Origin: Segatella paludivivens DSM 17968 = JCM 13650
Lineage (GTDB): Bacteria > Bacteroidota > Bacteroidia > Bacteroidales > Bacteroidaceae
Length of the DNA: 64,000 nucleotides
Reading direction: 5' to 3'
Assembly (NCBI RefSeq): GCF_000373185.1
Contig: NZ_KB890634.1
Location: forward strand, 1-64,000
The notes under the pieces were generated by a model. It saw only the letters and a program-made list of their open reading frames with translations. It searched no databases and was not told the DNA's origin. Below, piece by piece: positions 291 to 57,753 of this stretch. Both the position numbers and the translations under genes were made by a program. Position 1 is the stretch's first letter; the number at the start of each line of letters is the position of its first letter.

Positions 291-380
291 CAATGTCACT
301 AATGTCACAATGTCACAAACGCCCTGTTTATCGGGCTTTAGCGAGTGACATTAAGTGACATTATCGGGGTAAAAGTGACA
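291..380 (+). repeat. TGTCAC cluster around a conserved hairpin core (R1)
   Basis: Three TGTCAC hexamers (294, 303, 311) are followed by a hairpin GCCC (321-324) / GGGC (333-336) with loop TGTTTATC. Three inverted copies GTGACA follow (345, 355, 375). The core reads CTGTTTATCGGGCTTTAGCG. Very similar cores occur at about 29994-30014 (minus), 56607-56634 (minus) and 57415-57440 (plus), the last two with a different flanking motif. Confidence 0.75.
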
Positions 381-475
381 TTAAAATCGAAAACACACCT
401 ATTTTTAGCGTTTTATTTCAAATTATTAAGTTACCTGATTCTTCGTAAGAAATATCATTCAGATATTTTATTAAA

Positions 476-542
476 TAGTGATAAGGGCCTTATCACTATC
501 TAATGTATCACAAAGTGCAGAGTGATAAGGGCCTTATCACTC
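476..542. repeat. Paired 23-bp palindromes (R1)
   Basis: Two palindromes lie at 476-498 and 520-542. Each has arms containing AGTGATAAGG and CCTTATCACT around one central base. The outermost pair differs between them (T...A in the first, G...C in the second) yet stays complementary. The equivalent pair in R2 is at 29798-29818 and 29842-29862, and a single copy is in R3 at 57137-57159. Confidence 0.8.
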
Positions 543-661
543 AATGGTATGTCGAAGAAACTAATTTTATCATCGTTGCGCATATACGCTTTACTGCTAG
601 TAATAAATCTGTTTCATGATACAGAGTTTTTGCTATAGTGTAGGATGTCTCTGCTTTATCG

Positions 662-837
662 TTACTAAGTTTCTATTATTAATTGTCCATCATCCCGTTC
701 TATCGATCAAACGTTTGCGTTATGTCGTTATAAAGTTTCTGATTCTACGATCAAACGTTTCCATTATATCGTTATAAAGTTTCCATTGCATCAATCAAAC
801 GTTTTCTTTTTGTCGTTACTAATGCTTTAGTTGTATC
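662..837. repeat. Eight tandem 22-bp units (R1)
   Basis: Exactly 176 bp parse into eight 22-bp units starting at 662, 684, 706, 728, 750, 772, 794 and 816. From 706 onward two subtypes alternate, one beginning ATCAAACGTTT and the other beginning TTATAAAGTTT or TTACTAATGC, giving a 44-bp higher-order period. Most units end in TCG or similar. The period is not a multiple of three and there are no spacers, so this is neither a protein repeat nor a CRISPR array. Confidence 0.75.
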
Positions 838-982
838 AACAACATGTTTATTGATTATAATATAGTAAATAAATTTCCATCATATTCTTTTAATGCTACC
901 GAACTTTCAAAGTAGTAGTCTAGCCAGATCTTCTATTTTATCGTAGAAAATAGCAAATTTTAGTGGAGGACAGTGGATGATA

Positions 983-1000
983 GTGGAGGTATACCTCCAC
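983..1000. repeat. 18-bp perfect palindrome GTGGAGG...CCTCCAC (R1)
   Basis: This is a perfect dyad centred on GGTATACC, with extra half-sites TAGTGGAGG at 961 and AGTGGATGA at 972. The R2 copy (29359-29380) is extended to a perfect 22 bp. It looks like a high-affinity site for a dimeric DNA-binding protein or a cruciform. Confidence 0.7.
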
Positions 1001-1165
1001 CAGTTAACAAACTACAAGATAGCAGTTTACGCTTAAAGTGGAGGTTATTTAGAATTTTTGGAACTTTTTTGGTTTTTCGTTTTTCTATTATTAAACACTC
1101 ATGGGAAAGCAATAAAAAATCACAGCCATATAACAACTAGGGTTAGGTATAAAATCTATATAATA

Positions 1166-1212
1166 AAAAAAGGACTTAGCTTTAAAAACATATAAAACTA
1201 AGTCCTTTTTTG
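1166..1212 (-). terminator. Intrinsic terminator of rhaD
   Basis: Ten-bp arms AAGGACTTAG (1170-1179) and CTAAGTCCTT (1198-1207) are flanked by A-runs on the left and T-runs on the right, so it can work in both directions. It lies just downstream of the rhaD stop. Confidence 0.85.
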
Positions 1213-1224
1213 TTTGTATCCTTA

Positions 1225-2037
1225 TTACTTTGGAAGATTAAAAGCTACAGACATTTCTTTCATCTGTGCTTCGCTCATTCCTTCAGGTTCAAATCCCATG
1301 CAACGAGAATTGATATATATCTTGGCACTCTTTGAAAGGACATCAATCTGATCGAAAGCATCCATTACATCAAGTCCCTTTGCAAATACACCATGCTTTT
1401 CCCACATAACTACATCATAGTTTTCAAGTTCATTCAATGTAGCCTGAGCCAAATTGTTTGAGCCTGGTAGTTCGTAAGGAACTATTCCCAATCCCAGTGG
1501 ACAGAAAGCCTTTGTTTCAGGAATCATGCTCCACAATAAATTAGAAAGCACATCCTTGCCCATCATCTTAGGGTTGTGACTCATTGCAATAAGTTCAATA
1601 GGGTGTGTATGTACAGTAGCACGATATGGAGAACCAGTTTCTATAAGATGTGCATGAACTGTAAGGTGTGAAGGAAGTTCACTTGTAGGCATAACAGCAT
1701 TGTCGGCAATGATTACATAACTTGCGCAATCGTCTAATATGCGAATGATACTTCCGTTGTCCATAGGCTCACGTGCAAGATCACGCATACGCTTACCAGT
1801 TCCCTTGCAAAAGAAGTAGCAACCTTTCAAAGCAGGCAAAGTAACACCAATCTGCTTAACATCACTGATTGCAGGAAGACTCTTTATCTTGTCATCCACC
1901 AATTCTGTAATGTTTACTGTGATATTACCACCATTGCGCTCTGCCCATCCGTTCTGCCACAGATAACCAGCAACCTCTGCAATCTTATCAATTTCTTTCT
2001 TTAAGGCTTCACGGCCTTCCAAAACTGTCTGTTTCAT
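1225..2037 (-). CDS. rhaD: L-rhamnulose-1-phosphate aldolase
   Basis: Cytoplasmic zinc-dependent class II aldolase that splits L-rhamnulose 1-phosphate into dihydroxyacetone phosphate and L-lactaldehyde, the last step of the classical rhamnose pathway. The 270-residue length is normal for the family. Visible signatures are the phosphate-binding NGGNIT (residues 36-41), a probable catalytic Glu120, and the metal ligands His143 and His145 in VHTHP plus His215 in WEKHG. It is transcribed towards the left edge, is separate from the rhaB operon and has its own terminator. No lactaldehyde oxidoreductase gene is seen in the window. The neighbouring kinase, isomerase and transporter genes make the assignment firm. 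Confidence 0.95.
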   Translation of the reverse strand: MKQTVLEGREALKKEIDKIAEVAGYLWQNGWAERNGGNITVNITELVDDKIKSLPAISDVKQIGVTLPALKGCYFFCKGTGKRMRDLAREPMDNGSIIRILDDCASYVIIADNAVMPTSELPSHLTVHAHLIETGSPYRATVHTHPIELIAMSHNPKMMGKDVLSNLLWSMIPETKAFCPLGLGIVPYELPGSNNLAQATLNELENYDVVMWEKHGVFAKGLDVMDAFDQIDVLSKSAKIYINSRCMGFEPEGMSEAQMKEMSVAFNLPK

Positions 2038-2066
2038 ATTTTTGTTGATTTGTTTTTTTCTTTCGG

Positions 2067-2074
2067 CAAAAATA
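2067..2074 (-). promoter_or_regulatory. -7 box of rhaD promoter
   Basis: On the minus strand this reads TATTTTTG followed by C, matching the Bacteroidota -7 consensus TAnnTTTG, 30 bp before the rhaD start codon. The -33 element is not clear. Confidence 0.55.
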
Positions 2075-2156
2075 GCCTTATTTTACCTTTAAAGGCTTTG
2101 AATTATGATTTTTAAGCCTCAATAATTGATATTTCAATTATCATATAATGAATATA

Positions 2157-3032
2157 TTATCTTTCATTACCACGAAACTCACTCGGTTTAAGTCCCGTCT
2201 TTAGTCTGAACTTAGAAGAAAAATAATCAGGTGACTCGAAATTAAGCTGATAAGCAATTTCCTTTATTGTCATATCTGTAGTCGCCAATAGATCTTTGGC
2301 ACGCTGCAATTTTAAATCCTGCTGATACATAGACGGAGAAAAACCAGTGAACTCCTTGAATATTTTTCTGAAATTCGAATAGCTCATTCCTAACCGCATT
2401 GCAATCTCCTGAATAGTCGTTCCATCTTCCAATGTCTCACGTATCATCTGACGGGCACGATTCACTATATCAGTATGCACAAAATTCTGTTGCAACTGAT
2501 TGCTGCTTTCTAGAGAATACATCAACCCGATAAGATAGTTGGTTATTCCGGCAAGCACCTGTTGAGAATGTATAGCCTCCTCGTCTGCTACATGCAAAGC
2601 CATGTCGAGCATGCGGATAATCTCACTTGAATAGCCCACGTGATATATAGGATGTTCTGGAGACAAGAAATCTGCATTTACACGATCGTCCATGTTGCGC
2701 CCTTTAAATCCAAGCCAATAACATTTCCAACCAGTATTAGTATTGGGATGATAACTATGCCATTCACCAGGAAAGAGAAGAAATATATCGCCACTACGCA
2801 ATTCAACTTCTCCTACACTATGAGACTTGAACATACCACCGCCCTCTTTGACGTAAAGCATCTGATATTCTTGCAAAATGCGCCCTTTGGCAACATTGAA
2901 GTAGAAGCCATCGGCATGACCATGCGTAGGATAATCCTCACCAGGAAGATTCTCCTCATAACCAACGGTGTCGACATTCAATCCCCACAGCAAGTCCTTG
3001 GTATCAGTAACCAGATATTTAAACTTTTTCAT
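2157..3032 (-). CDS. AraC-family regulator, probable rhamnose sensor
   Basis: A 291-residue one-component regulator. The N-terminal half is a cupin-type sugar-sensing domain (about residues 30-150, with a HGHADG metal-like motif near residue 37). The C-terminal 95 residues contain two helix-turn-helix motifs of the AraC type (IQEIAMRLGMSYSNFRKIF and IKEIAYQLNFESPDYFSSKF) and end in the usual LKPSEFR. It is divergent from rhaB with only 137 bp between them and sits between rhaD and rhaB, so control of the rha genes is the natural inference. It is the functional counterpart of RhaR/RhaS, but orthology to either is not established. Confidence 0.85.
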   Translation of the reverse strand: MKKFKYLVTDTKDLLWGLNVDTVGYEENLPGEDYPTHGHADGFYFNVAKGRILQEYQMLYVKEGGGMFKSHSVGEVELRSGDIFLLFPGEWHSYHPNTNTGWKCYWLGFKGRNMDDRVNADFLSPEHPIYHVGYSSEIIRMLDMALHVADEEAIHSQQVLAGITNYLIGLMYSLESSNQLQQNFVHTDIVNRARQMIRETLEDGTTIQEIAMRLGMSYSNFRKIFKEFTGFSPSMYQQDLKLQRAKDLLATTDMTIKEIAYQLNFESPDYFSSKFRLKTGLKPSEFRGNER

Positions 3033-3051
3033 GTTACCAAATTGTATTGTG

Positions 3052-3083
3052 CAAAGTTATCAAAAAACATGGTAATGACAAAA
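3052..3083 (-). promoter_or_regulatory. Promoter of the AraC regulator gene
   Basis: On the minus strand a TTTTTG -33 element is followed after 19 bp by TAACTTTG (3052-3059) and then C, a good Bacteroidota promoter about 20 bp from the start codon. The divergent rhaB promoter begins within 60 bp, so one regulator could act on both. Confidence 0.65.
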
Positions 3084-3132
3084 ATTATGGGTTTAAAATC
3101 AAAAAATCTAGTCTGTCACATCACTGATTTAC

Positions 3133-3140
3133 TATCTTTG
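3133..3140 (+). promoter_or_regulatory. -7 box of the rhaB-rhaA-rhaT operon
   Basis: TATCTTTG followed by C fits TAnnTTTG exactly and lies 30 bp upstream of the rhaB ATG. The -33 region is degenerate, as expected for a promoter that needs an activator. Confidence 0.65.
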
Positions 3141-3169
3141 CCAACATAATAAACACTAACCTACAAACA

Positions 3170-4645
3170 ATGGAAAATCTAAAACACTTCTTTGCCGTTG
3201 ACCTTGGAGCAACAAGCGGACGTACAATCGTTGGCTTTCTGAAAGACGGAAAGGTGAAAATGGATGAGCTAACACGTTTCGACAACAATCTGATTTCTAC
3301 AGGCGGGCATGTGTATTGGGATATATTTGCCCTATACAATGAGATAATAAAGAGTCTGAAAATCGTAGCCGAGCGTAATATAAAGATTGAAAGTATCGGT
3401 ATTGACACTTGGGGATGCGACTTTGTATGCACGGGTAAAGACGGAAACATTCTTCGCAATCCACTAGCCTATCGTGATCCTCACACTATGAACACGATGG
3501 AGGAATACTTTGCTGAGCAGATGTCTAAAAAAGACGTTTATGGAATAACTGGAATACAATTGATGAACTTCAATTCCATTTTCCAGCTTTACGCTATGAA
3601 GAAAGCTAAGAATGATGCTCTTGCTGGTGCAGACAAGATTATGTTCATACCTGACGCGTTGAGTTACATGCTTACAGGAAAAGCTATCTGCGAATACACT
3701 GTATGCTCTACATCACAACTGCTTAATCCAAAAGAAGGCGATATTTCAGAAGAACTGCTTGAAACACTTGGACTGAAACGTGAGCAATTTGGTAAAATGA
3801 CTGCTCCAGGAACAGTAATAGGAAACCTTAGCGATGAGGTTAAAAATATTACAGGACTTGGTGATATACCTGTTGTAGCTGTAGCCGGACACGACACTGC
3901 AAGTGCTGTAGCTGCCGTACCTGCAGAAGACGAGCACTTCGCTTATCTTAGTTCGGGTACTTGGAGCCTTATGGGTATAGAAACAAAGGACGCTATCATA
4001 AATGAAGAAAGCTACAAACTTAACTTCACTAACGAAGGCGGTATTGAGGGAACAACAAGATTCCTAAAGAATATCTGCGGTATGTGGTTGTATGAAAGTT
4101 GCAGAAAAGAATGGCACGAGACTAAGGGTATGGGACATGCCGAACTACTTAACGAGGCCATGAAGGTGGAAGGATTCAGAAGTCTTATTAATCCTGATGA
4201 CGCAGTATTCGCTAATCCTACTTCTATGGTTGAAGCAATAAAGAAATATTGTGCTAATCACGGCGAACACGTACCTGAAGGATATGCCGAGATATGCCGT
4301 TGCATATTCGATTCACTTGCACTGCGATATAGACAGGTATTGGAATGGCTGAAAGACTTTGCCGATTTCGACATCAAGGCTTTACATATCATCGGCGGAG
4401 GTTCACTTAACAAATACTTGAATCAGTTTACTGCAAATTCATGTGGTGTTACTGTACTCGCTGGTCCACAGGAAGCTACAGCTATTGGCAATATAATGAT
4501 GCAGGCAAAAGCAGCAGGATTGGTAAAAGATGTTTGGGATATGAGAAAGCTTATTGCCGACTCTGTTCAGCTAAACATATTTGAACCAGAAGACAAGGAA
4601 ATCTGGGATGAAGCTTACGATAAATATTTAAAAATAACAAAATAA
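3170..4645 (+). CDS. rhaB: L-rhamnulokinase
   Basis: FGGY-family sugar kinase (491 residues) that phosphorylates L-rhamnulose at O1 in the cytoplasm. The N-terminal phosphate-1 loop FFAVDLGATSGRT (residues 7-19) starts the first actin-like domain. AGHDTASAV and YLSSGTWSLMG lie at the domain junction, and the adenine-binding IIGGGSLNKYLNQF plus GPQEATAIGN are in the second half. GTWS and GPQEATAIGN are typical of rhamnulokinases. It is the first gene of an operon, 14 bp ahead of rhaA. No anomalies seen. Confidence 0.96.
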   Translation: MENLKHFFAVDLGATSGRTIVGFLKDGKVKMDELTRFDNNLISTGGHVYWDIFALYNEIIKSLKIVAERNIKIESIGIDTWGCDFVCTGKDGNILRNPLAYRDPHTMNTMEEYFAEQMSKKDVYGITGIQLMNFNSIFQLYAMKKAKNDALAGADKIMFIPDALSYMLTGKAICEYTVCSTSQLLNPKEGDISEELLETLGLKREQFGKMTAPGTVIGNLSDEVKNITGLGDIPVVAVAGHDTASAVAAVPAEDEHFAYLSSGTWSLMGIETKDAIINEESYKLNFTNEGGIEGTTRFLKNICGMWLYESCRKEWHETKGMGHAELLNEAMKVEGFRSLINPDDAVFANPTSMVEAIKKYCANHGEHVPEGYAEICRCIFDSLALRYRQVLEWLKDFADFDIKALHIIGGGSLNKYLNQFTANSCGVTVLAGPQEATAIGNIMMQAKAAGLVKDVWDMRKLIADSVQLNIFEPEDKEIWDEAYDKYLKITK

Positions 4646-4659
4646 TAAAACCTAAAATT

Positions 4660-5913
4660 ATGAATTCAGAACTAATTGAAAAGAACTATCAAATTGCCAA
4701 AGAGCGTTATGCTGCGATTGGCATAGACACAGACAAGGCTCTTGATACATTGGAGAAGACTCCAATATCACTTCATTGCTGGCAAGCTGACGATGTAGTG
4801 GGATTTGAGCGTAACGAAGCTCTTTCTGGTGGTATCCAGACTACAGGTAACTACCCTGGACGCGCACGCAACATCGACGAACTTCGTCAAGATATAAATA
4901 AGGTTACATCACTTCTTGGTGGAACATTCCGCCTAAACCTTCACGAAACATACGGTGAATTCGGAAACAAATTTGTTGACCGTGATGAGGTTGAGGTTAA
5001 GCATTTCCAGGGATGGATTGACTGGGCTAAGGAAAACGGACTGAAACTTGATTTCAACTCAACAAGTTTCTCTCACCCAAAGAGCGGATACCTATCTCTT
5101 TCAAATCCAGACAAGAGCATACGTGATTTCTGGATTGAGCACACAAAGCGTTGTCGCCGCATTGCAGACGCAATGGGTAAGGCACAGAATGATCCTTGTA
5201 TCATGAACATCTGGGTACACGACGGTATGAAGGATATCACTGTTGAGCGTAATCGCTATCGTGAAATTCTGAAAAACAGTCTTGACGAGATTCTTGCAGA
5301 GAATTTGCCAGATATGAAACCATGTCTTGAAGCAAAACTATTCGGTATTGGAATGGAAAGCTACACTGTAGGTTCTCACGACTTCTATGCAAGTTATTGC
5401 GCAAAGAACAACGTGATGTACACACTTGACACCGGTCACTACGAGCAGACAGAGAACGTTAGCGACATGGCTGCTTCACTATTGCTGTTTGTACCAGAAT
5501 TGATGCTTCACGTAAGCCGCCCTATCAGATGGGATAGCGATCACGTAACAATCATGAACGATCAGACTCTAGACTTGTTCAAGGAGATTACACGTGCAAA
5601 CGCACTCAATAGAGTTCACATCGGACTTGATTACTTTGATGCAAGTATTAACCGTATCGGTGCATACATCGTAGGAACAAGAGCTACACAGAAGAGTGTT
5701 CTTTCTGCACTTCTTGAACCTTTGGCTAAACTGCGTGAGTACGAAGATAAGGGACAGTGGTTTGAACGTCTTGCTCTTCTTGAAGAAGCTAAATCTCTTC
5801 CATTCGGTGCAGTATACGATTACTTCAACATGAAGCATAACATACCTGTAGGCGAAGAGTTTATAGCAGATGTTCAGCAATATGAAAAGGATGTTCTTTC
5901 AAAGAGAGCGTAA
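4660..5913 (+). CDS. rhaA: L-rhamnose isomerase
   Basis: Converts L-rhamnose to L-rhamnulose, the first intracellular step. At 417 residues it is almost the length of the E. coli enzyme. It is a metal-dependent TIM barrel: the metal ligands are expected at His260 (in LDTGH), Asp292 and Asp294 (in RPIRWDSDHV), with Glu233 in GMESYTVGSH. The start is clear, 14 bp after rhaB, and rhaT follows after 3 bp, so translation is probably coupled. The gene order kinase-isomerase-transporter supports the call. Confidence 0.96.
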   Translation: MNSELIEKNYQIAKERYAAIGIDTDKALDTLEKTPISLHCWQADDVVGFERNEALSGGIQTTGNYPGRARNIDELRQDINKVTSLLGGTFRLNLHETYGEFGNKFVDRDEVEVKHFQGWIDWAKENGLKLDFNSTSFSHPKSGYLSLSNPDKSIRDFWIEHTKRCRRIADAMGKAQNDPCIMNIWVHDGMKDITVERNRYREILKNSLDEILAENLPDMKPCLEAKLFGIGMESYTVGSHDFYASYCAKNNVMYTLDTGHYEQTENVSDMAASLLLFVPELMLHVSRPIRWDSDHVTIMNDQTLDLFKEITRANALNRVHIGLDYFDASINRIGAYIVGTRATQKSVLSALLEPLAKLREYEDKGQWFERLALLEEAKSLPFGAVYDYFNMKHNIPVGEEFIADVQQYEKDVLSKRA

Positions 5914-5916
5914 ACA

Positions 5917-6939
5917 ATGAATATTGCATTAGGACTTATTATCATTGCGATAGGAGCGTTTTGCCAGTCAAGTTGCTACGTTCCTATCAATAAGATAAAG
6001 AACTGGAGTTGGGAAAGCTACTGGATTGTCCAGGGAGTATTTGCCTGGCTCCTGCTCCCTCTCTTGGGAGCAATGCTTGCAATACCTGCCGGACACTCTA
6101 TGATAGAATTGTTCAGTCAGGATATGCATGCCACAATTATGACAATGCTCTATGGCGTGTTATGGGGTATCGGCGGACTTACTTTCGGTTTGTCTATGAG
6201 ATATCTTGGAGTTGCTCTCGGTCAGTCTATAGCACTAGGAACATGTGCCGGACTTGGAACGATATTAGCTCCGCTTTTTACAGGACATGCTAGCGACCTT
6301 ACAACATCCGTAATAGTTGGTGTCGTAGTAACTCTAGTCGGTATTGCAATAATAGGAATAGCTGGTTCTATGAAATCGGCTTCACTGTCAGATGAGGAAA
6401 AGCGTGAAGCAGTAAAGGACTTCAACTTCACAAAAGGAATCACAGTAGCTCTATTGGCTGGTTTCATGTCGGCATGTTTCAACATAGGACTTGCACAAGG
6501 TGCCGACCTTCATTTCGAAGGTGTAAACCCAATGTTCATATCATTACCTGTTACATTCTTGGTTACGCTAGGAGGATTTATCACAAATGCGATATATTGC
6601 TTCTATCAAAACCAGAAGAATCATACATGGAATGACTATGGCAAATCAAACGTATGGATGAACAATGTATTATTCTGTCTGCTTGCAGGCGGACTATGGT
6701 ACAGTCAGTTCTTCGGTCTTTCACTTGGAAAAGGATTTCTCTCAGAAAGTCCAGCTCTGCTCACATTCGCATTCTGCATTCTGATGGCTCTTAACGTTGT
6801 ATTCTCTAATGTATGGGGAATCATCCTAAAAGAGTGGAAAGGATGTTCTAGCAAAACTATCGTTGTATTGATAACAGGAATATTGATACTTGTTATATCA
6901 TGTTTCCTTCCGCAGATCATAGATATGATAAACAAATAA
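5917..6939 (+). CDS. rhaT: L-rhamnose/proton symporter
   Basis: A 340-residue inner-membrane transporter of the drug/metabolite superfamily, RhaT type. About ten hydrophobic segments run from IALGLIIIAIGAFCQSSCYVP at the N-terminus to VVLITGILILVISCFLP at the end. The N-terminal QSSCYVPINK and the conserved GLSLGKG near residue 270 are typical. It is the last gene of rhaBAT and would import rhamnose released in the periplasm by the glycosidases encoded nearby. Confidence 0.93.
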   Translation: MNIALGLIIIAIGAFCQSSCYVPINKIKNWSWESYWIVQGVFAWLLLPLLGAMLAIPAGHSMIELFSQDMHATIMTMLYGVLWGIGGLTFGLSMRYLGVALGQSIALGTCAGLGTILAPLFTGHASDLTTSVIVGVVVTLVGIAIIGIAGSMKSASLSDEEKREAVKDFNFTKGITVALLAGFMSACFNIGLAQGADLHFEGVNPMFISLPVTFLVTLGGFITNAIYCFYQNQKNHTWNDYGKSNVWMNNVLFCLLAGGLWYSQFFGLSLGKGFLSESPALLTFAFCILMALNVVFSNVWGIILKEWKGCSSKTIVVLITGILILVISCFLPQIIDMINK

Positions 6940-6954
6940 TAACTAATTGCATCT

Positions 6955-6993
6955 AAACCGCATCATTGTACAGTAATGTCTTTGATGCGGTTT
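6955..6993. terminator. Bidirectional terminator between rhaT and the DUF5703 gene
   Basis: Eleven-bp arms AAACCGCATCA (6955-6965) and TGATGCGGTTT (6983-6993) are followed by a T-run on the plus strand. The structure ends rhaT and also contains the last codons and stop of the convergent gene, so the two genes share it. Confidence 0.8.
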
Positions 6994-9212: not shown

Positions 9213-9224
9213 TGTATTTCTTTT

Positions 9225-9785: not shown

Positions 9786-9816
9786 TTAGGTATTTTTTAG
9801 GTTTTATTTTCAAATG

Positions 9817-9824
9817 CAAATTTA
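9817..9824 (-). promoter_or_regulatory. -7 box of the sigma factor gene
   Basis: The minus strand reads TAAATTTG followed by C, matching TAnnTTTG, 31 bp before the start codon. The -33 element is weak. Confidence 0.55.
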
Positions 9825-9858
9825 CCTAAATAACCTATTAAGGTCTTGTAAAATCAGA

Positions 9859-9898
9859 TATAAAAATGGGAAAAATTGGTATTTTCCCCATTTTTATT
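9859..9898 (-). terminator. Terminator after the beta-helix gene
   Basis: Inverted repeat ATAAAAATGGG (plus strand 9860-9870) / CCCATTTTTAT, with further pairing in the loop and a T-run on the minus strand. It lies between the stop of the 985-residue protein and the sigma factor gene, which separates the two transcription units. Confidence 0.65.
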
Positions 9899-9916
9899 AC
9901 CATTTAAGGTCTAATA

Positions 9917-29257: not shown

Positions 29258-29358
29258 CATTACTAACTTAATAATAGAAAAACAAAAAACAAAAAAGTTT
29301 CAAAAATCAGGAACAGCCTCCACTTCAAGCGTAAATTATTATATTTCAGCCTGTTAAC

Positions 29359-29380
29359 TAGTGGAGGTATACCTCCACTA
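29359..29380. repeat. 22-bp perfect palindrome (R2)
   Basis: The half-site TAGTGGAGGTA is followed immediately by its exact reverse complement. Two near-copies of a half-site (ATCCACTATC, then CCTCCACTA) follow within 20 bp. Confidence 0.75.
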
Positions 29381-29522
29381 TCATCCACTATCCTCCACTA
29401 AAATTTGCTATTTTCTAGGATAAAACAACAAGACGCAACAAAGTTACAGCTTTGAAGGTTTGATTATAGTAAAAGAATAAAATAGAAATTTATTTACTAT
29501 ATCTTAATCAACAAACATCTCG

Positions 29523-29700
29523 TTGATGCAACTTAAACATTAGCAACGACAAAACGAAAACGTTTGATCGATGAAATGGAAACTTTATAACGATGAAATG
29601 GAAACTTTACATCGATATAACGCAAACGTTTGATCGATAGAACGGGGAGATAGATGATTAATAATAGAAACTTAGTAACTATAAAATAGAAACATTTTTC
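29523..29700. repeat. 22-bp tandem units (R2)
   Basis: Reverse-complement counterpart of the 662-837 array. Units read CGATGAAATGGAAACTTT (two adjacent copies) and CGATATAACGCAAACGTTTG at the same 22-bp period. The spacing is kept although the sequence has diverged. Confidence 0.7.
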
Positions 29701-29797
29701 ACGATAGCAAAAACTCGTGTAGTGAAACCGAGTTATTGTTACCAGCAAAGTGTATAAACACAATGATCATATAATTAGTTTCTCCGACATGCCATTG

Positions 29798-29862
29798 AGT
29801 GATAAGGGCCTAATCACTCTGCACTTTGCGATACATTAGAAAGTGATTAGGCCCTTATCACT
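29798..29862. repeat. Paired complementary 21-mers (R2)
   Basis: The 21-mer at 29798-29818 (AGTGATAAGG...CTAATCACT) and that at 29842-29862 (AGTGATTAGG...CTTATCACT) are exact reverse complements of each other, although each has one mismatch as a palindrome on its own. The 23-nt spacer could be a hairpin loop. Confidence 0.8.
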
Positions 29863-30239
29863 ATCCAATAAAATAGCTGGATTATATTTTTTGCAAAGAA
29901 TCGGGTATGATAATTGGTCATAAAACGCCAAAAATAGGTGTGTTTTCGATTTTAATGTCACTTTTAGCCCGATAATGTCACTTAATGTCACTCGCTCAGA
30001 CCCTATAAACAGGGCGTTTGTGACATTATGACATTAGTGGCATTGAAAAAACTTTTTCTGGTATAAGACAATATCATAAGAAATGAACAATATAACGTTG
30101 CTATAGCATCGTCTAATTATATTTATTATTACTGCTGTTAAGACATAATACTTACCTAAATATTAACACTCATTATCAGCCACCCCTGCCTTAACAATAG
30201 ATATCATAAATATAGATTCACAACACAAAAGACCTCACT

Positions 30240-48366: not shown

Positions 48367-48412
48367 AAACAAAAGATACAAGAATTAGGATAATAAAATT
48401 AAAACAATTAAG

Positions 48413-49327: not shown

Positions 49328-50148
49328 GAGCCATTTTAGCCATCTTAAATAGAAATTTATTGAAACTTGTGCGCGATAGAATGCGCCTGTTTATGAATCT
49401 ATTCATGTCTGTTATCATGCTTTTTGTCTTTTCATTTGTAATGAAGAGCACAGCTACGGGCATTACCAACCCTATGAATTATTTGATTGCGGGTATCATC
49501 ATCATGACCGTCTTCCAAATTGCTTTGAATAATTCTATGAATATCCTCGATGATATTTCAAGCGGTTTTATGAAAGAAATTCTGGTAGCACCGATCTCTC
49601 GTTGGCAGATTGCTATCGGGCATATGTTATCGTCTACCGTTATCTCTGTTATTCAGGGACTTATTATCGTAATCATCGGTCTGTTTATGGGATTAGACCT
49701 TGATACAGTTCACGGACTCGGTATGGTTCTCATTATGGTTTTAGCCGGACTCACATTCAGTGCTTTGGGATTATATCTGGCAACAATTACACGCGAATCA
49801 AGCAATTTTCAGCTGTTGGTCACTATCATATCATTTCCCCTTACGTTCTTGTCTGGAGCCTACATTCCGACATTTGCGTTACCCAAATTTATGCTTCCCA
49901 TCGTCCTGATAAATCCCCTGACATACGCCACAGCTCTGTTCCGGGAAGTAACATTGAAAATGGATCATTTATCGGTAGCAGAAATGGTGAAAAGTGGCAT
50001 AGCGTTTCAAGTGGGCAGTTTCACAATCATGCCATGGATGAGTTTTGTCATAATTATGGTCATTTGCCTTATCTTCCTGATGCTAAGCGTACAGCAATTT
50101 TCCAAAGCCGATTTTTCAAGAATCAAAATATTCAAGCACGGGCATTAA
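49324..50148 (+). CDS. ABC-2 type exporter, permease subunit
   Basis: A 274-residue inner-membrane permease with six hydrophobic spans (e.g. LFMSVIMLFVFSFVMKS, MNYLIAGIIIMTVFQIAL, VLIMVLAGLTFSALGLYLATI). The ABC-2 signature segment near residues 190-215 is PIVLINPLTYATALFREV. It partners the ATPase encoded immediately upstream. A hairpin terminator follows at 50255, closing the unit that starts at the Fe-S protein or the sigma factor. Confidence 0.92.
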   Translation: MRAILAILNRNLLKLVRDRMRLFMNLFMSVIMLFVFSFVMKSTATGITNPMNYLIAGIIIMTVFQIALNNSMNILDDISSGFMKEILVAPISRWQIAIGHMLSSTVISVIQGLIIVIIGLFMGLDLDTVHGLGMVLIMVLAGLTFSALGLYLATITRESSNFQLLVTIISFPLTFLSGAYIPTFALPKFMLPIVLINPLTYATALFREVTLKMDHLSVAEMVKSGIAFQVGSFTIMPWMSFVIIMVICLIFLMLSVQQFSKADFSRIKIFKHGH

Positions 50149-51075
50149 TAATTGAATTTAAGGACATTCTTAGAAGATTTATTCTCTTGAATAAACACCC
50201 AAAGGCTCCTAAAAATGTTTTTAGCAAAATAAAAAGATAGTTACTATTATATGCATGAAAGAATCCCTATAAAATATTGGGATTCTTTCATTTGAAATTT
50301 GCTAATTCATTTTGTCGACAAGAAGAAAGCTTACATAGCCACCACACAATAGTAACATAATGAACAAGCAAGAATACTAGTCACAATACAAGTAAAGTTA
50401 TATTCGTTTTATTTTTATCACTATTTTTTATGCAACCTGTGAAATGCTGCAAATAAAAGCCATATTAGTATTAAAAGCAGAGAACAGACAAGTATGCTAT
50501 TTATAATCAAAAGCTTAGCAGAACATAAAGTAATATATAATAACAATAGCATTGTTAGTATTCTTAGTATATATCATACCCGATTTCTTTTTTAGCTTCA
50601 TTAGTTGTTAATTTACAATGTTCTTCGTGTATTTTATTATCATACAAAATAAACTAATATAATGATAAATTCAAAATATATGACATCACATTTTCTTTTT
50701 ATTTTAGATAATTAATATAACAAAGAGCTACATATACAATCAAGAAGACGCTTGAGCCTTTATGAAAGCAAATTATTTCCCGTAATTAAAAATAAGATCA
50801 TTATAATAATGACAAAATCAAATAACAAGAAAAACAAAGAATAATTTGGATATTGATAATTTTATATTTAAATTTGTACATGATGTAAAAAATAGCTATA
50901 TGAACATATCTAAATCAAACATGTATAAAATAACTCCCATGAAAACAAAGCCTTACAAGGATCTTTTAGATATGAGAATCCCCGTAATGTTCGTAAAGAC
51001 GATTATGAGTCTATTAATTATAAAATACTTGCATTAAAAAACAAGTACAATCACAAAAAAACAAACCATTTACAT
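50149..51075. other. 927-bp A+T-rich intergenic region before the Shango cassette
   Basis: It contains the terminator at 50255-50291 and otherwise very A+T-rich sequence with no recognisable gene. A 63-codon frame (50846-51037) and a separate start-less frame (50929-51075, in frame with the next gene) overlap here; together they could be a frameshifted N-terminal extension of the TerB protein. Confidence 0.4.
50255..50291 (+). terminator. Terminator of the ABC exporter operon
   Basis: Perfect 13-bp arms ATGAAAGAATCCC / GGGATTCTTTCAT with an 11-nt loop, followed by TTGAAATTT, 106 bp after the permease stop. Confidence 0.75.
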
Positions 51076-53049
51076 ATGAATTCAAATAATGGTTGCAATA
51101 TTTGGTATATACTAATTGGGCTACTATTTCTTATTTCAGGAATGATCCAATCAAATAATATATACGCTATAATTATAGCTGCACTACTCTTAATTAGTAT
51201 TATCGGGGCATTTATATATTTAACGATAAACGGACCTAAAAAAACAGATGAAAAGGATTTTTATATTTCGGAACAAAAAGAATCAGAAGACATTAACATT
51301 ACTGAGTCAGATAAACAAGCGTGTTTGCTTTTTTTCTCGAACTTTAATCTCACAGAAGGATATACAAGTGAACAAATCAATTATAATATCTGGCTTGCAA
51401 AAAAAACAGTATTCTTTAATGAAGATACATCTATTATAGAAAAAGAATCCATCTTGGGAGGAGTACTTATGCTATATAATAAAAATATTCTGCCATCTTT
51501 AGACAAATATTTTCTTAGTAACTTTATACAAGCCTTAATAATCAAATTTTTTCCCGACAAGATACTAACTCTTATTAAGAGTCGTATAATAGACGATATG
51601 GATGAAATTAAAGATTTCTATTTTATAAACAAAATCAAGGAATCTGCAAAAATTGACAAAACGTTAATTTTTGAGACTGCGAAAATTTATATTAACCATT
51701 TTGCCATATCTTCGTTTGAAAGAGATATCAAAACATATTTTATTAGTGATTTTAATCTTCCTGAGCAAAAAAATACACAGAATTATGATAAAGATTATAA
51801 TATTAGATTAGGTTATTTCATAGAAAAGGCTTTTAATGATAGTAAATCATCTGTCACTATATACACAACTACACAAACGGTACACTCTTATTTAGAAGCA
51901 ACTAAGGATGCTTGCAAAAAAATAAATGATGATTTTAAATATCTTGGACGATTTAATAATATTTTAGCACTAGCATACTTGCCGCATTATATTGATATAA
52001 GAGATAATAAGAAATGTATTCATTTTAATAAAGAAATAGAACGATTATTTAGTATTTCTGATTATCCAACGCTAAATATAGATAAGATTGTTAAAATTTT
52101 CAATCTTGCAAAAAAATTAAATGAAACTACTTTGGAAGAAATTCAAGATCCTTTTATAAGAAGTTTATCTCGCTTAGGATATGGCATTATACCAGAAAAT
52201 TTTACATACGAAAATAAATGCGTTTTATATAGACGAGAGCAGGCTGTATACAGAAATAAAGACATAGAGGATTTTTGTTTGCTCTCAATATTAATAAACA
52301 AATTGATGCAAGCTGATTCTGCTACAAATGCAGATTTCTGTCTATTCGACAAAATAATTTCCAGTTTAATTGACAATGTGAATGAACGCCATTATCTTTC
52401 TGCATTTATTAGATGGCAGAATACGAAAAAAGTGATTTTGTACAAATCAAGAAAGGATAACATTCAAGAACTGAGCAATGAAAGGAAAAAAATGTTTGGA
52501 GAAATCTTGTTCAGATTTACATATAGCACAGGGGAAGTAAGGCCTAAGAGAACATCTGCTATAGCTAATTTACTATTATTATTAGGATTAGAAAATAATA
52601 ATATTCATGGAAAAATCCACAATTTAATAACTAGCAGAGAGCCCTCTGTAAATGACTTTAAAAACGTCAACAAATTGATTAATAACAAAGAAAAGACTCA
52701 AGTAAATATTAATAAAAGAAGACTTAATGAATTAGAAGAAGAAACTCTTTTGTCTCAAAATATACTAGACGAAATATTTAGTCAGAAAGAGGATCTTATT
52801 ACTAATGAAATGAAAGAACAAGATATAGTCCCTAACAATAAAATATTAGAAATTCTCTCAACATTGCTCTCAAAAGAAATGTGGAGCAAAAAAGAAGTAG
52901 ATGATATTTGCAAACAAAAAGGCTTGATAACAAGCTCTGTTTTAGAAAAAATAAATGATTACTCATATTCTAAAATTGAAGATTCAATTATAGAAGATAA
53001 TGGGGAGAATATATTTGTTATACAAGATTATAAAGAACTGTTATTATGA
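51076..53049 (+). CDS. sngA: TerB_C-domain protein, Shango defence subunit A
   Basis: A 657-residue protein. The N-terminus has two membrane spans (about 9-25 IWYILIGLLFLISGMIQ and 28-53 IYAIIIAALLLISIIGAFI), then a long helical region. The last 65 residues, SKKEVDDICKQKGLITSSVL then EKINDYSYSKIEDSIIEDNG, match the TerB_C domain. It overlaps the ATPase gene by 4 bp and is followed by a helicase gene. TerB-type protein + ATPase + DEAD/H helicase is the composition of the Shango anti-phage system. Membrane anchoring of subunit A is a feature I would not take for granted in other Shango systems. The symbol is assigned by gene order and domain. Confidence 0.78.
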   Translation: MNSNNGCNIWYILIGLLFLISGMIQSNNIYAIIIAALLLISIIGAFIYLTINGPKKTDEKDFYISEQKESEDINITESDKQACLLFFSNFNLTEGYTSEQINYNIWLAKKTVFFNEDTSIIEKESILGGVLMLYNKNILPSLDKYFLSNFIQALIIKFFPDKILTLIKSRIIDDMDEIKDFYFINKIKESAKIDKTLIFETAKIYINHFAISSFERDIKTYFISDFNLPEQKNTQNYDKDYNIRLGYFIEKAFNDSKSSVTIYTTTQTVHSYLEATKDACKKINDDFKYLGRFNNILALAYLPHYIDIRDNKKCIHFNKEIERLFSISDYPTLNIDKIVKIFNLAKKLNETTLEEIQDPFIRSLSRLGYGIIPENFTYENKCVLYRREQAVYRNKDIEDFCLLSILINKLMQADSATNADFCLFDKIISSLIDNVNERHYLSAFIRWQNTKKVILYKSRKDNIQELSNERKKMFGEILFRFTYSTGEVRPKRTSAIANLLLLLGLENNNIHGKIHNLITSREPSVNDFKNVNKLINNKEKTQVNINKRRLNELEEETLLSQNILDEIFSQKEDLITNEMKEQDIVPNNKILEILSTLLSKEMWSKKEVDDICKQKGLITSSVLEKINDYSYSKIEDSIIEDNGENIFVIQDYKELLL

Positions 53050-54371
53050 AGAAGATAATAAAGCCAATGGAGCGTGAGGCAATCATTCGCTCACTGAGAA
53101 GCGGTATTGTACCAAAAATTGGTCTCCAACATATTCAAGTTGGTAGAGCAAAAGAATTAGACTCATTTATAAAAGACATAACCAACATTGTTGATGGGGG
53201 AAATTCTTTTCGATTAGTAATTGGAGAGTATGGTTCAGGAAAGACTTTTTTTTTATCACTTGTCAGAAGTATTGCGTTAGAGAAAGGACTTGTCACTTTA
53301 AATGCTGACTTGTCTCCAAGCAAGAGGATTTGTGGTAGTCAAGATCAACCAAAGAAATTAGTTTCTGAACTTATAGCAAATATTTCAACTAGAACTAAGC
53401 AAGATGGTAATGCGCTTAGCTACATATTGGAAAGAGTAATCACTTTGGCAAACAAAGAAGCCCAAACCAATAAAGATGACGTAGCTTCTGAAATATACAA
53501 AATGCTTAAAGAATTGGAAGATTATTATGGAGGGGAAAGTTTCATAAAGGTTATAGCTTGTTATTGGTACGCATATAATAACAATAATGATGATCTTAAA
53601 AGCAAATGCATAAAATGGTTACGTTGCGAATACAAATCTAGAACAGATGCTAAAAAAGATCTCAATGTGAGAGAAATCTTAGCAGACTATACTTTTTTCA
53701 ATATAATGGAACTTTATTCTGTACTTGTCAGAAAAGCAGGATATAAAGGATTACTTATATGTCTTGATGAAATGGTTAATCTATATAAGATAACAAATTC
53801 TCAATCTCGCAAATCAAACTACGAAGAAATACTAAACATATTGAATAATACATATCAAGGTACAATATCAAATATTGGTTTTATTATGAGTGGTACACCA
53901 GATTTTCTTACAGATGAAACAAGAGGACTATATAGTTATGAAGCATTAAGATCACGACTGGCAGAAAACAACTTTGCTAAGAAGATTGGAATAACTGATT
54001 ACAACTCAACGGTACTACGATTAGCAAATCTACATCAAGAGGAACTACTTTTACTATTAAAAAATATTCGCAATGTTTATGCATATGGGAAAAAAGATTC
54101 ATATCTTGTACCAGATGAAGCTATTATTGCATATATGAAACATTGCAATTCGGTAATTGGTGAAAGTTATTTTAGAACTCCACGAAATACAATAAAGGGA
54201 TTTATAGATCTATTATCAGTGCTTGAGCAATCCCCCCAAAGCAAATGGGAAGATCTTGTTGAAAAAACAGAAGTTACAGAAGATATAGAATCTGACAATT
54301 TAAGTTATTTAATGACGAATGAAAAATCAGATTCTAATTTAAATGAAGAATTTGCGTCGTTTAATATATAA
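53046..54371 (+). CDS. sngB: DUF2791/BrxD-like ATPase, Shango defence subunit B
   Basis: A 441-residue P-loop ATPase of the DUF2791 (BREX BrxD-like) family. It opens with the family-typical MEREAIIRSLRSGIVPKIGLQ and VGRAKELDSF. Walker A is GEYGSGKTF (60-68) and Walker B LLICLDEMV (236-244). A sensor-like IMSGTPDFLTDETRGLYSY and an RTPRNTIKGFIDLL segment near the end are also family features. It overlaps sngA by 4 bp and ends 6 bp before sngC, so the three are translated from one message. No other BREX component is nearby, which argues for Shango over BREX. Confidence 0.83.
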   Translation: MKKIIKPMEREAIIRSLRSGIVPKIGLQHIQVGRAKELDSFIKDITNIVDGGNSFRLVIGEYGSGKTFFLSLVRSIALEKGLVTLNADLSPSKRICGSQDQPKKLVSELIANISTRTKQDGNALSYILERVITLANKEAQTNKDDVASEIYKMLKELEDYYGGESFIKVIACYWYAYNNNNDDLKSKCIKWLRCEYKSRTDAKKDLNVREILADYTFFNIMELYSVLVRKAGYKGLLICLDEMVNLYKITNSQSRKSNYEEILNILNNTYQGTISNIGFIMSGTPDFLTDETRGLYSYEALRSRLAENNFAKKIGITDYNSTVLRLANLHQEELLLLLKNIRNVYAYGKKDSYLVPDEAIIAYMKHCNSVIGESYFRTPRNTIKGFIDLLSVLEQSPQSKWEDLVEKTEVTEDIESDNLSYLMTNEKSDSNLNEEFASFNI

Positions 54372-54377
54372 AACGAT

Positions 54378-56534
54378 ATGAAACCATCTTCGTTAACATT
54401 ATTAGATATTAGAATCCAAAAATGGATAGCACGACAAGGTTGGAATTCTCTTCGAGAAATACAAGAGAATTCCATACCACCTATATTGAGAAAAAATTGC
54501 GATGTAATCATTAGTGCTTCTACAGCAGGAGGAAAGACTGAGGCCGTCTTTCTTCCTGTAATAAGTCAAATTCTCAAATCAAAAAGGAACAATGGATATC
54601 AAGTTTTGTACATAAGTCCATTAAGAGCTTTAATAAATAATCAGTATGAACGGTTAATAAAAATGGTTTATGGATTAAACATACCCATAACTTCTTGGCA
54701 TAGTGATGTACCAAATAATATCAAAGTAAAATCCTTAAAAAATTCTGATGGAATTCTTATTATAACACCAGAATCTTTAGAATCTTTTTTAATAAATCGT
54801 AAGGATGAAGCACATAATTTATTCAAAGCAATACAGTATGTAATTATTGATGAATTACACACATTCATAGGGAACGAGAGAGGGATACAATTACAATCTC
54901 TGTTGTCAAGAATTGAACATTGTCAGCAAAGAGTGATACCAAGAATTGCCATGAGTGCAACATTCTCTGATTACAATTTCGTTAAAAAATTCTTAAGAAA
55001 CGATAGTATAATACCATGCGAGATACCATCAAAAGGCGATGATTCTCATCAAATGATGATAATTATTAAAGAATATACAACCAAAGATCATATCTCATAT
55101 ATTAAAAATATCACTGAAGATATATTCAAAAGACTTAGAGGTAGTAATAATCTTATTTTTACAAATAGCCGCTATGATTCTGAAAAATATGCATCATTAT
55201 TATCAAATATGTGTAAAAGACTATTTATTCCAGATGCATTCAGAGTTCATCATGGTAGTTTAAGTAAAACCATACGAGAAAAAACAGAAAAAGATTTACA
55301 GAATGGTTTGTATCCCATTTCTGTCTTTTGTTCTTCTACATTAGAACTTGGTATAGATATCGGCAAAATAGAATCTATAGCTCAAATTGAATCAATAAAT
55401 TCTGTATCTAGTCTAATGCAAAGGCTGGGACGCTCCGGACGAGCAGGAGATTCTTCCAAATTAAGAATATATTCTATTGATAGAGGTAACAATATTATGT
55501 ATTATTTACGTAGTAATCTTGTCCAAAATATAGCAGCTGTAGAACTCACAAAAGAAAAACATTTCCAAAGCCCAGACATTTCTGGTTATCACTTTTCAAC
55601 TCTAATACAACAGATAGTTGCTATTATTGGGCAATTTGGTAGCTTTCATCCAAAGAATGGATGGAAGCTCCTTTGTCAAGAAGGCGCTTTTTGTAATATC
55701 TCAGCTAAACTTTTTTTGGAAATTATAAAGTCTTTAGCAAAAAATGATATTATATCACAAATGAGAAATGGTCAAATTATTATTGGTTCAAAAGGAGAGA
55801 GTATTCTTAATAAGAAAGATTTTTATTCCGCATTCAATAGCGATAAAGGATACATGGTTATAAATAAGAATAATACAGTCCCCATTGGTTATATTAAAGA
55901 AGATCCACAAGTAGGAAACTCTATTATTTTAGCAGGAATAAGTTGGAAAATAGAATATATAAACTATAGGAATAATAAGGTTTATGTAACACAAAACGGA
56001 CTAGGAAATATAACACACTACTCTGGGAGTCTCGTTCCCAAAGACAATATTATCATACAAAAGATGCGAGATATATACTTATCGGATGAAATATATCCGT
56101 ACCTTGATAAAAATACTAATACTCCCAAGCACTTATTAAGAGCACGCTCTTTTCTTAAGAAAATTGGACTGGATAAGAGTTCTATAATACAATACCGCAC
56201 TAAAACCTATATTTTTACTTGGGCAGGCGATAAAATTAACAAAACGATCTACTTAATGGCTAAATATTATTTAGATAAACGCATTAGCTACAATCATTTA
56301 TATATTACAGACCTCAAAATAAATGATATAGAATCAATTATTAGATTTGGTAAAGTAGATGCTATTGAGTTAGCAAATCTTATAAACCGAGGAGCTAAAG
56401 AAAAGCAAAAATACGACTATCTACTTTCTGATGAGCTTTTGAATATTGAATACGCAAATACTTATTTAGATATAGACCATGCTTGGGAAATATTAATAGA
56501 ACTAAATAGTTATATAATTTTAAAGATGCAATAA
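54378..56534 (+). CDS. sngC: DEAD/DEAH superfamily II helicase, Shango defence subunit C
   Basis: A 718-residue SF2 helicase of the Lhr/BrxHI-like group. Motif I is STAGGKTE (48-55), motif Ia SPLRALINNQ (80-89), motif II DELH (158-161) and motif III SAT (193-195). The second RecA domain has FTNSRYDSEKYA, STLELGIDIG and motif VI QRLGRSGR (349-356). The C-terminal 350 residues are a helical/winged-helix extension of no recognisable nuclease type. It is probably the DNA-remodelling component of the defence complex. Codon use is strongly A/T-biased, as in the other two genes, suggesting joint transfer. Confidence 0.85.
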   Translation: MKPSSLTLLDIRIQKWIARQGWNSLREIQENSIPPILRKNCDVIISASTAGGKTEAVFLPVISQILKSKRNNGYQVLYISPLRALINNQYERLIKMVYGLNIPITSWHSDVPNNIKVKSLKNSDGILIITPESLESFLINRKDEAHNLFKAIQYVIIDELHTFIGNERGIQLQSLLSRIEHCQQRVIPRIAMSATFSDYNFVKKFLRNDSIIPCEIPSKGDDSHQMMIIIKEYTTKDHISYIKNITEDIFKRLRGSNNLIFTNSRYDSEKYASLLSNMCKRLFIPDAFRVHHGSLSKTIREKTEKDLQNGLYPISVFCSSTLELGIDIGKIESIAQIESINSVSSLMQRLGRSGRAGDSSKLRIYSIDRGNNIMYYLRSNLVQNIAAVELTKEKHFQSPDISGYHFSTLIQQIVAIIGQFGSFHPKNGWKLLCQEGAFCNISAKLFLEIIKSLAKNDIISQMRNGQIIIGSKGESILNKKDFYSAFNSDKGYMVINKNNTVPIGYIKEDPQVGNSIILAGISWKIEYINYRNNKVYVTQNGLGNITHYSGSLVPKDNIIIQKMRDIYLSDEIYPYLDKNTNTPKHLLRARSFLKKIGLDKSSIIQYRTKTYIFTWAGDKINKTIYLMAKYYLDKRISYNHLYITDLKINDIESIIRFGKVDAIELANLINRGAKEKQKYDYLLSDELLNIEYANTYLDIDHAWEILIELNSYIILKMQ

Positions 56535-56818
56535 ATACAAACTAAAAAACACAATTGAATTTCCCTATCATTTCTCTTGTTTTTAGCTACGTGAGCTTCG
56601 GATCCTCTCTCAAAGCCCATAAACAGAGGCTTTGACGATACGTAGCTGGTAGGATTTAGCTACGATAGCTACGTTTTAGCTACGGCAACTTGGATTATTT
56701 GGAGGATGGAATGTATTTCATAATTGAATTTGTCAAAGAAACGTTACTGCATCTGAGGGACTGAGGATGGATACATAGATTCAGTAAACGAAAACAGAAT
56801 TTTCAAGCTTGATTAAAC

Positions 56819-56854
56819 GTTCTGCCGAATTCCACTGAATTCTCTGCAAAGATA
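56819..56854 (-). repeat. Diverged third copy of the promoter-leader repeat
   Basis: Begins GTTCTGCCGA and ends TGCAAAGATA like the two 36-bp repeats at 33661-33768, with a different middle (two GAATTC). On the minus strand it reads TATCTTTGCA...TCGGCAGAAC, a -7 box plus the same downstream sequence. Transcription would run leftwards, antisense to the end of the helicase gene. Confidence 0.6.
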
Positions 56855-57136
56855 CTTCAAGATTTTTATCCATGCAATGAAATCAAGTTTGGGCAGTTAG
56901 CCAAAGTTTCAATTACTGGTGCTACACATAATAACACATGCGCATACGCACACTTTGGATTTTTCAAAAATACCAGCGTCGAAATGTCTATCCGTTGAAT
57001 ATCAACTTGTTAGACTTCTTTTCGAGAATAATCAAGTGACGAAAATGTGTCAAGCAAAAATCTAATTGAGTACTTTTCATAATCTTCTAATACAAATTTT
57101 TGCGGAAAACTAAATTGCGTTTCGTGTTACTTTGCC

Positions 57137-57159
57137 GAGTGATAAGGCCCTTATCACTC
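57137..57159. repeat. 23-bp perfect palindrome (R3)
   Basis: Arms GAGTGATAAGG and CCTTATCACTC around a central C. Apart from the central base it is identical to the second R1 palindrome (520-542). Confidence 0.8.
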
Positions 57160-57753
57160 CCCAAAACAACGTAAATCGCAATGCATTTCTTCGTAAAAAG
57201 CATGATAAAATTTGAGGCTTCTTCGTCATATCACCGTCATCATATATTATTAAAAATGACAGATAATATATTGATATTCATTATGTTGACACTTCGACAC
57301 TAGTATTTTTAAAAAGTCCTAAGTGCGTGCGCGCACGTACATAATATATAATAGAAATAGACAACGTAGCTAGAACGTAGCTTTCGTAGTTAAATTGACC
57401 TAGCTACGTATCGTCAAAGCCCCTGTTTATGGGATTTGCGAGAGAATACGTAGTTCACGTAGCTAAAAAGCACGAAAAACGTAGGGAAAGCCCCCTAAAC
57501 ATACAAAAATCAAATCGACACAGAGAAATTTAAGCCAAAAATAATATGCTACACTACATTATATGTAGATACGAGTATAACTGTTTGCAATGCGCAATAT
57601 AGTAATAAATTACACAGAAAAAGATGTTTTTTTCTTTTACTATGCATTTTTTTACTATCATAGCCTCATATCAAAGTGAATGGTTAGTTATGCTGTAGCT
57701 ACATAACTACAAAACAACATACCTGCATTTTATTATTTTTTGATAATCATTTT

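Follow-up and report, generated by a model that had tools for sequence, protein, structure and literature searches.

We analysed a window of 64,000 nucleotides, the beginning of one contig (G000:C9:1-64000) of the Segatella paludivivens genome (G000; 3.46 Mb, 61 contigs), and the three non-coding repeat clusters in it, R1, R2 and R3. Our comparisons indicate that these clusters are mosaics of the ends of larger elements that encode a VapE-type protein, and that each such end probably serves as a replication origin that the element's own initiator is predicted to recognise. The VapE elements are about 2.4-3.4 kb long, most of them carry a gene for a DUF6078 protein, and each of their ends is formed by a hairpin core lying between inverted copies of an element-specific motif of 6-9 bp. 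The best reading of this layout is that two element-specific origins together with an initiator would make up a mobile unit without a transposase of its own.

Composition of the repeat clusters

R1 and R2 are a single repeat of about 800 bp in inverted orientation, and R3 is bounded by inverted arms of 125 bp. The window repeats were compared by BLAST with the VapE loci of G000 and of its closed sister genome (G024). The alignments (Table 1) indicate that R1 and R2 join the ends of two parents, VapE-I and VapE-III-b, and that R3 joins those of two others, VapE-II-b and VapE-II-a; by this comparison all three clusters are non-coding mosaics of VapE-element ends.

Table 1. Features of R1, R2 and R3 in the window, with the matches that identify their pieces
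Feature	Positions	Strand	Evidence
R1, non-coding mosaic element	272..1094	+	R2 is its inverted copy; pieces match VapE elements
R1 left end, VapE-I (DUF6078 + VapE) element end with TGTCAC array, likely origin	273..426	+	86% to L178 left end, E 2e-48; 88% to L127 right end, E 1e-46
Six TGTCAC/GTGACA sites around the R1 core	294..380 (294, 303, 311 +; 345, 355, 375 -)	.	hexamer search
R1 hairpin core CTGTTTATCGGGCTTTAGCGAG	324..345	+	core pattern search
R1 GTGATAAGGGCCTTATCAC palindromes, as directly 3' of VapE-III-a	477..581	+	73% to L170, E 3e-9
R1 AAACGTTT repeats, as 3' of VapE-III-b	698..813	+	81% to L177, E 1e-25
R1 right end, VapE-III-b element end with CCTCCAC array	961..1084	-	two L177 ends: 85% over 961-1001, E 1e-7; 68% over 962-1084, E 5e-6
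R2, R1 in inverted copy	29268..30064	-	repeat comparison
R2 other end, VapE-III-b end with CCTCCAC array	29361..29400	+	87.5% to L177, E 3e-8
R2 VapE-I element end with TGTCAC array	29902..30063	-	86% to L178 right end, E 2e-48
R2 hairpin core	29997..30012	-	2 differences from written pattern
R3, non-coding mosaic element	56560..57489	.	125-nt inverted arms; relatives in G000 and G024
R3 left arm, GTAGCT array	56560..56684	.	56651-56684 matches VapE-II-b left array, 94% to L164, E 1e-8
R3 left hairpin core	56611..56626	-	2 differences from written pattern
R3 inner stretch, VapE-II-a 3' flank with GTGTCGAA-like motif	56845..57052	-	67% to L172, E 2e-12
R3 GATAAGGCCCTTATC palindrome, as 3' of VapE-III-a	57131..57159	.	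90% to L170 over 29 nt, E 7e-5
R3 inner stretch, VapE-II-a end	57288..57334	+	87% to L172, 85% to L165, E 3e-9
R3 right arm, GTAGCT array	57365..57489	.	57364-57396 matches VapE-II-b array, 91% to L164 and L175, E 2e-6
R3 right hairpin core	57423..57438	+	2 differences from written pattern

A sequence-only reading of the window had proposed that R1, R2 and both ends of R3 share one hairpin core. All four copies were located, one of them exact (CTGTTTATCGGGCTTT at 324-339, plus strand, in R1); the GCGAG/GAGAG tail is present at 4/4 cores, and the hairpin loop TGTTTAT is common to R1, R2 and R3. With up to 3 mismatches, the bare core pattern was found 13 times against 8.9 expected, a number reached by 10 of 100 shuffles and thus not significant. 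The core is considered real because of homology: R1 and R2 are one inverted repeat, the arms of R3 are inverted, and both belong to dispersed families with at least 77 and at least 78 matching pieces in G000 (40 candidates scored for each). Around the loop a stem of at least 3 bp is closed in 19 of the 28 distinct cores of TGTCAC type and in 24 of the 50 of GTAGCT type, compared with 28% of shuffled flanks. The stem letters differ between cores (CCCTT/AAGGG, AGCCC/GGGCT, CCA/TGG), and the constancy of the loop among the compared cores reflects their selection by the loop. An Rfam search of the window gave no match.

The hexamer clusters described in the same reading, TGTCAC at R1/R2 and GTAGCT at R3, were confirmed. 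The densest 100 bp hold 6 copies of TGTCAC, 5 of GTAGCT and 4 of CCTCCA, whereas the maximum in 100 first-order Markov simulations was 3. The six TGTCAC sites of R1 lie within 87 bp, in inverted halves flanking the core; R2 has 4 exact copies, and R3 has 5 exact copies of GTAGCT at 56585-56683 and 4 at 57366-57464. Over the whole window TGTCAC is at background (32 vs 27.9 expected), and GTAGCT occurs 42 times vs 20.3 expected, with 0 of 100 shuffles as high. The second ends of R1 and R2 carry a third motif, CCTCCAC, which had been overlooked.

Coding parents and their matched arrays

The TGTCAC-type end recurs across G000, and 36 such ends align as CTACCAGAAAAAGTTTTTTTAATGTCACTAATGTCATAATGTCAC-core-GAGTGACATTAAGTGACATTATCGGGGTAAAAGTGACATTAAA. 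Among 60 related genomes, this end was matched in 4: G000, G024 with many copies, and G003 and G026, in which the first 42 bases alone match. G024 has 39 TGTCAC-end matches, 26 of which form 13 inward-facing pairs, and also 148 R3-like pieces. Twelve of the pairs are short copies of 781-1123 bp, and one spans 3,172 bp (L127). This unit has only two genes: one for a DUF6078 protein of 150 aa, the other for a protein of 710 aa whose domains in Pfam are BT4734-like (N-terminal), VapE-like (PF05272, E 2e-30) and DUF3874. Its counterpart in G000 lies at C25:22274-25441, with a VapE identity of 91%. Pfam searches of both L127 proteins revealed no transposase domain, and there was no integrase between the ends. 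The final VapE codons lie inside the right end of the parent, and many short copies keep this remnant, while the middle of the gene-less copies corresponds to the stretch between DUF6078 and VapE (10 pieces on L127 2220-2371). Since they keep both ends and the intergenic stretch of the parent and have lost the genes, the short copies are best described as its internal-deletion derivatives. A Cas6 gene (Pfam; L127:540-1319) adjoins the G024 parent copy, and the right ends at L004, L019 and L021 represent a further end type, with CGTCACT/CATCACT words and about 70% identity to the TGTCAC end, for which no parent element was found.

There are 17 VapE matches in G000 and G024 together, and automatic inverted-repeat searches were run around these loci. 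TGTCAC arrays occur with VapE clade I (L127, L178), GTAGCT arrays with clade II-b (L164, L175), GTGTCGAA/CGTCTA-type repeats with clade II-a (L165, L171-L174) and a 134-nt CCTCCAC repeat with clade III-b (L177); clade III-a (L169, L170, L176) gave weak CCTACATG/CATACATG matches. The expectation that each hexamer class would co-occur with a particular primase-type gene was therefore borne out. The suggestion of one recognition system with exchangeable motifs, acted on by different replication proteins, is supported with an amendment: the motif does track the VapE clade, but the cores appear to belong to the ends of several elements and not to one element with a switched motif. In this form modular recognition has the VapE initiator as its predicted, concrete partner. 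After the VapE II-a gene of L172, a block (L172:5724-14002) holds genes for an HU-type protein and a tyrosine recombinase and others that, by eye, resemble a fimbrillin cluster; it recurs at several places in G024 (among the matches listed).

The pairing of arrays was then examined across the genus, by comparing the two flanks of each VapE gene with each other and with those of other loci. Of 100 loci entered (80 of them from the genome_contigs set, the best 80 of 184 VapE relatives), 99 had a VapE open reading frame (ORF), 97 had enough flank and 85 were non-redundant (<95% identical); L166, L167 and L168, among the 17 matches above, were left out. The median inverted-repeat score was 50.0 for own flanks vs 20.2 for flanks of different loci, 49/85 loci exceeded the cross 99th percentile (44.6), and the locus itself was strictly the best-matching partner in 46/85 cases (chance 1 in 85 each). 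Cross-matches above the threshold were found in 5/889 ordered pairs with a VapE identity <35%, 0/1530 at 35-45%, 9/4035 at 45-60%, 26/624 at 60-80% and 29/62 at 80-95%. These values indicate that arrays are shared mainly between close VapEs and differ between elements. A common repeated 6-mer was present in the own arms of 48/49 above-threshold elements and in 605/2352 cross comparisons, which is partly by construction because the 49 were picked by arm similarity; the 85-locus test is free of that. Over the 49 elements there were 31 different top 6-mers, a figure that overstates the number of classes, as shifted readings of one motif are included.

DUF6078 was found in 45 of the 49 elements, in which an array lies 10-274 bp before it, and was not found in the other four (L165, L177, L269, L270); 42/49 contain no other ORF of at least 110 aa. 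Sequence alone shows this class of elements, their content of two genes and the private arrays matched between their ends. The TGTTTAT..GG core recurs with several other motifs: with up to 1 mismatch it was present in 17/98 arms vs 7/385 control windows, and exactly in 10/98 vs 1/385.

Among the relatives, DUF6078 was found in 56/149, all of one genus. Twenty DUF6078 loci were fetched; in 7 of them, inverted repeats of 45-138 nt enclose DUF6078-VapE and show six additional motifs, while one locus at a contig end had CCTCCACC repeats and another a distant VapE. Named VapE relatives were overwhelmingly Prevotella, Segatella or other Prevotellaceae/Bacteroidales, and on one Prevotella contig (L330) a VapE stretch was 95% identical over the last 228 residues. 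In PLSDB, 53 records contained a VapE relative, and three regions were inspected. In Bacteroides finegoldii (NZ_OY725909.1, L334), inverted CTGACAATA arrays lie on both sides of VapE, an instance of this layout beyond Prevotella; L333 showed no arrays, and L335 (P. distasonis), in which DUF6078 is present, gave 14-nt matches only. In viral_contigs, none of 124 pattern matches was confirmed as a VapE relative by tblastn.

Replication, movement and competing explanations

The VapE domain matches PDB entry 7pds, 'similar to D. nodosus vapE' (E 6e-9), which we take to be the Rep of Staphylococcus aureus pathogenicity islands (SaPI), as well as a phage DNA-helicase family (E 3e-38) and phage helicase/primase families. 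The array runs into the VapE stop codon (L127, L164) and is repeated in inverted orientation at the opposite end of the element. The excerpted text of PMC7581432 describes SaPI Rep as reading short iterons directly downstream of its gene via its C-terminus, and Cch2 of the staphylococcal cassette chromosome (SCC) as likewise recognising AAGTG direct repeats; in PMC5862659, the VirE/VapE ATPase is predicted to be a mobile-element helicase and BT4734 is given as a primase family. In DUF6078 four cysteines are invariant, and its structural model is confident (predicted local distance difference test score, 92), but fold searches returned no clear relative. Weak matches to helix-turn-helix (HTH) regulators (Aca10 and C.Kpn2I, for example) appeared alongside other folds, and the matches were clear in neither direction as to a hidden nuclease. 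Motif similarity was predicted about equally by every VapE and DUF6078 segment (area under the curve 0.71-0.79, 990 pairs), a correlation that appears equally compatible with VapE or DUF6078 as the reader of the motif.

From these data we infer origin function, recognition of the motif and movement free of a transposase. VapE, with DUF6078 as a zinc-cysteine and possibly HTH protein, would load onto the iterons and the hairpin would be opened; firing from both ends would copy the unit, and the copies would enter new sites with no recombinase of the element itself, perhaps at forks or hairpins via host repair, leaving no target duplication. More than one initiator could then replicate the gene-less mosaic copies in trans. 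We consider this reading somewhat more likely than not. Its boldest form, a class of replication-only mobile elements that fire a private origin at each end, with gene-less mosaics parasitising several initiators and copies fixed without an element-encoded recombinase, is put forward tentatively, as a possibility short of an even chance.

Movement is only hinted at, by non-matching flanks, one presence/absence site and the lack of visible target duplication. The flanks of the parent unit do not match between G000 and G024, and the unit alone does, save repeats of up to 66 bp (among the matches listed). G000 lacks a short copy that lies between metF and tonB in G024 (2307015-2307838) and has 63 bp between the matched flanks; no target duplication is visible at this site or, by eye, at 13 TGTCAC-class elements. 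The tamA-rlmB locus (L021) did not provide a second empty site, as the flanks there are 5.9 kb apart in G024. A second repeat, GGTTCTTCgTCAATTTAGgg..ATCCTCnATAAATGggCTTGG, was often seen by eye about 50 bp outside the tip of short copies (e.g. L141, L145, L019) and is perhaps their preferred target; tRNA was rejected as a target, since no tRNA lies within the window.

Several observations weigh against the favoured reading. No element has been seen moving; because the terminal 10 bp of the element tip persist within the 63 bp of G000, the metF-tonB site may be a loss by deletion as well as a gain. The R1/R2 pair appears to be older than the split from G024, because the same pair occurs there with equal spacing (at 973606 and 1003453, among the matches listed). 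No inverted array above the threshold was detected at 36/85 loci; the GTAGCT parents lie below 44.6 (L164, 41.0; L175, 31.9), and their arrays rest on short matches of 18-32 nt. VapE does not adjoin 11 of the 20 DUF6078 loci, and outside Prevotella arrays were present at 1 of 3 inspected VapE loci. The catalytic aspartates of primase motif I were not seen by eye in 13 aligned VapEs; the primase half of VapE may be inactive, and because these residues are missing the element may depend on a primase of the host or of a partner.

A different view takes the elements to be ordinary transposons with inverted repeats, mobilised in trans by a transposase encoded elsewhere that recognises a conserved tip (CTACCAGAAAAAGTTTTTT in the TGTCAC class), with VapE and DUF6078 as passengers or as amplifiers of excised copies. 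Gene-less copies with both ends are indeed plentiful, and a tip pattern outside the arrays and common to motif classes, CYAC-N3..12-TTTTT, was present at 21/98 ends vs 2/388 control windows, although this pattern was picked after the ends had been viewed. However, most DDE transposons leave a target duplication, and none was seen by eye at the 13 elements above; the Y1_Tnp family was found in 0/2 genomes (G000, G024) vs 5/14 control genomes, other transposase families not having been searched genome-wide; and with VapE and DUF6078 as the only genes in 42/49 elements, passengers would leave the private array at both ends unexplained. We consider a helper of this kind unlikely, about one chance in a few; if one were found, the element class would be a novel form of a known kind.

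It is improbable that the arrays are operators through which a Zn/HTH-like DUF6078 represses its own operon, the downstream array being a terminator or second operator and the units no replicons. The position of the array before DUF6078, the cysteines and the weak regulator matches would suit such a role, but one would not expect operators to have a matching inverted counterpart at the far end that extends into the VapE stop, nor gene-less copies to retain both ends, and four arrayed loci had no detected DUF6078. Finally, repetitive extragenic palindromes (REP) or bacterial interspersed mosaic elements (BIME) moved by a Y1 transposase of the REP-associated kind, or hairpins arisen by chance, are very hard to credit in spite of the GTAG-type letters of the R3 hairpins, given units of 0.8-1.1 kb with inverted ends of about 150 bp derived from coding elements, and no Y1_Tnp in either genome.

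Relation to known elements and further observations

The VapE elements share some, not all, features of satellites and of miniature inverted-repeat transposable elements (MITEs) and lack the recombinase that defines known mobile elements. With the SaPI/SCC replication modules they share the homology of the VapE domain to 7pds. In the excerpt of PMC7581432, those modules have a self-contained initiator helicase, in some fused to a primase-type domain, and element-specific short iterons beside the helicase gene; here arrays stand at the VapE stop, in 49/85 loci by the flank test. VapE elements differ in having two inverted arrays, one per end, in lacking genes for an integrase, packaging or regulation in 42/49 cases, and in their many gene-less copies per genome. 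As in MITEs and their parent insertion sequences, short gene-less intergenic copies with inverted ends arise by internal deletion of a coding parent; here, however, the parent has no recognised transposase, the ends are iteron-hairpin arrays, no target duplication was seen, and R1-R3 combine ends of different parents. PINSR, a 188-bp repeat of Prevotella intermedia, is also intergenic and amplified in a Prevotella lineage (177-184 copies), but PMC4755523 describes it as lacking terminal inverted repeats and without any known element as its source. REP/BIME with their REP-associated tyrosine transposase (RAYT, Y1) are likewise dispersed intergenic hairpins, but the Y1 transposase is in neither genome and the VapE units are far larger and have a coding parent. 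We found no description of DNA spread by an initiator only in the literature searched, in which subscription journals and preprints were thinly covered.

If the replication-only reading is true, a replication initiator alone would suffice for DNA to multiply and move within a genome, and the commonness of VapE/BT4734 genes in Bacteroidales would be explained. Origin words that diverge with the initiator across the genus would form a natural catalogue of initiator-iteron specificities, and dozens of matched initiator-array pairs would let the evolution of initiator specificity be tested. As long inverted repeats with a good match, the mosaics could also cause chromosomes to break and rejoin, as suggested by one site: the element at G024:C1:1405057-1405843 (L090, L091) has a left flank matching G000 C27 and a right flank matching C18 (among the matches listed), and is likely a rearrangement breakpoint.

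At some TGTCAC-type ends of G000 (L028, L017, L030; C27, C35), a foreign end resembling that of an insertion sequence, TGTCTTTAGCCGGAATAGG or TGTCTTATAGCAG, was seen by eye to start within the hairpin loop or next to it, which would fit targeting of this loop by an insertion sequence; no insertion-sequence gene was identified at these ends. In the window, R1 and R2, in inverted orientation, lie on either side of a 29-kb block of genes (272-30064), and a likely defence cluster with TerB-C, BrxC/D ATPase and DEAD helicase genes adjoins R3 on the left (51076-56534).

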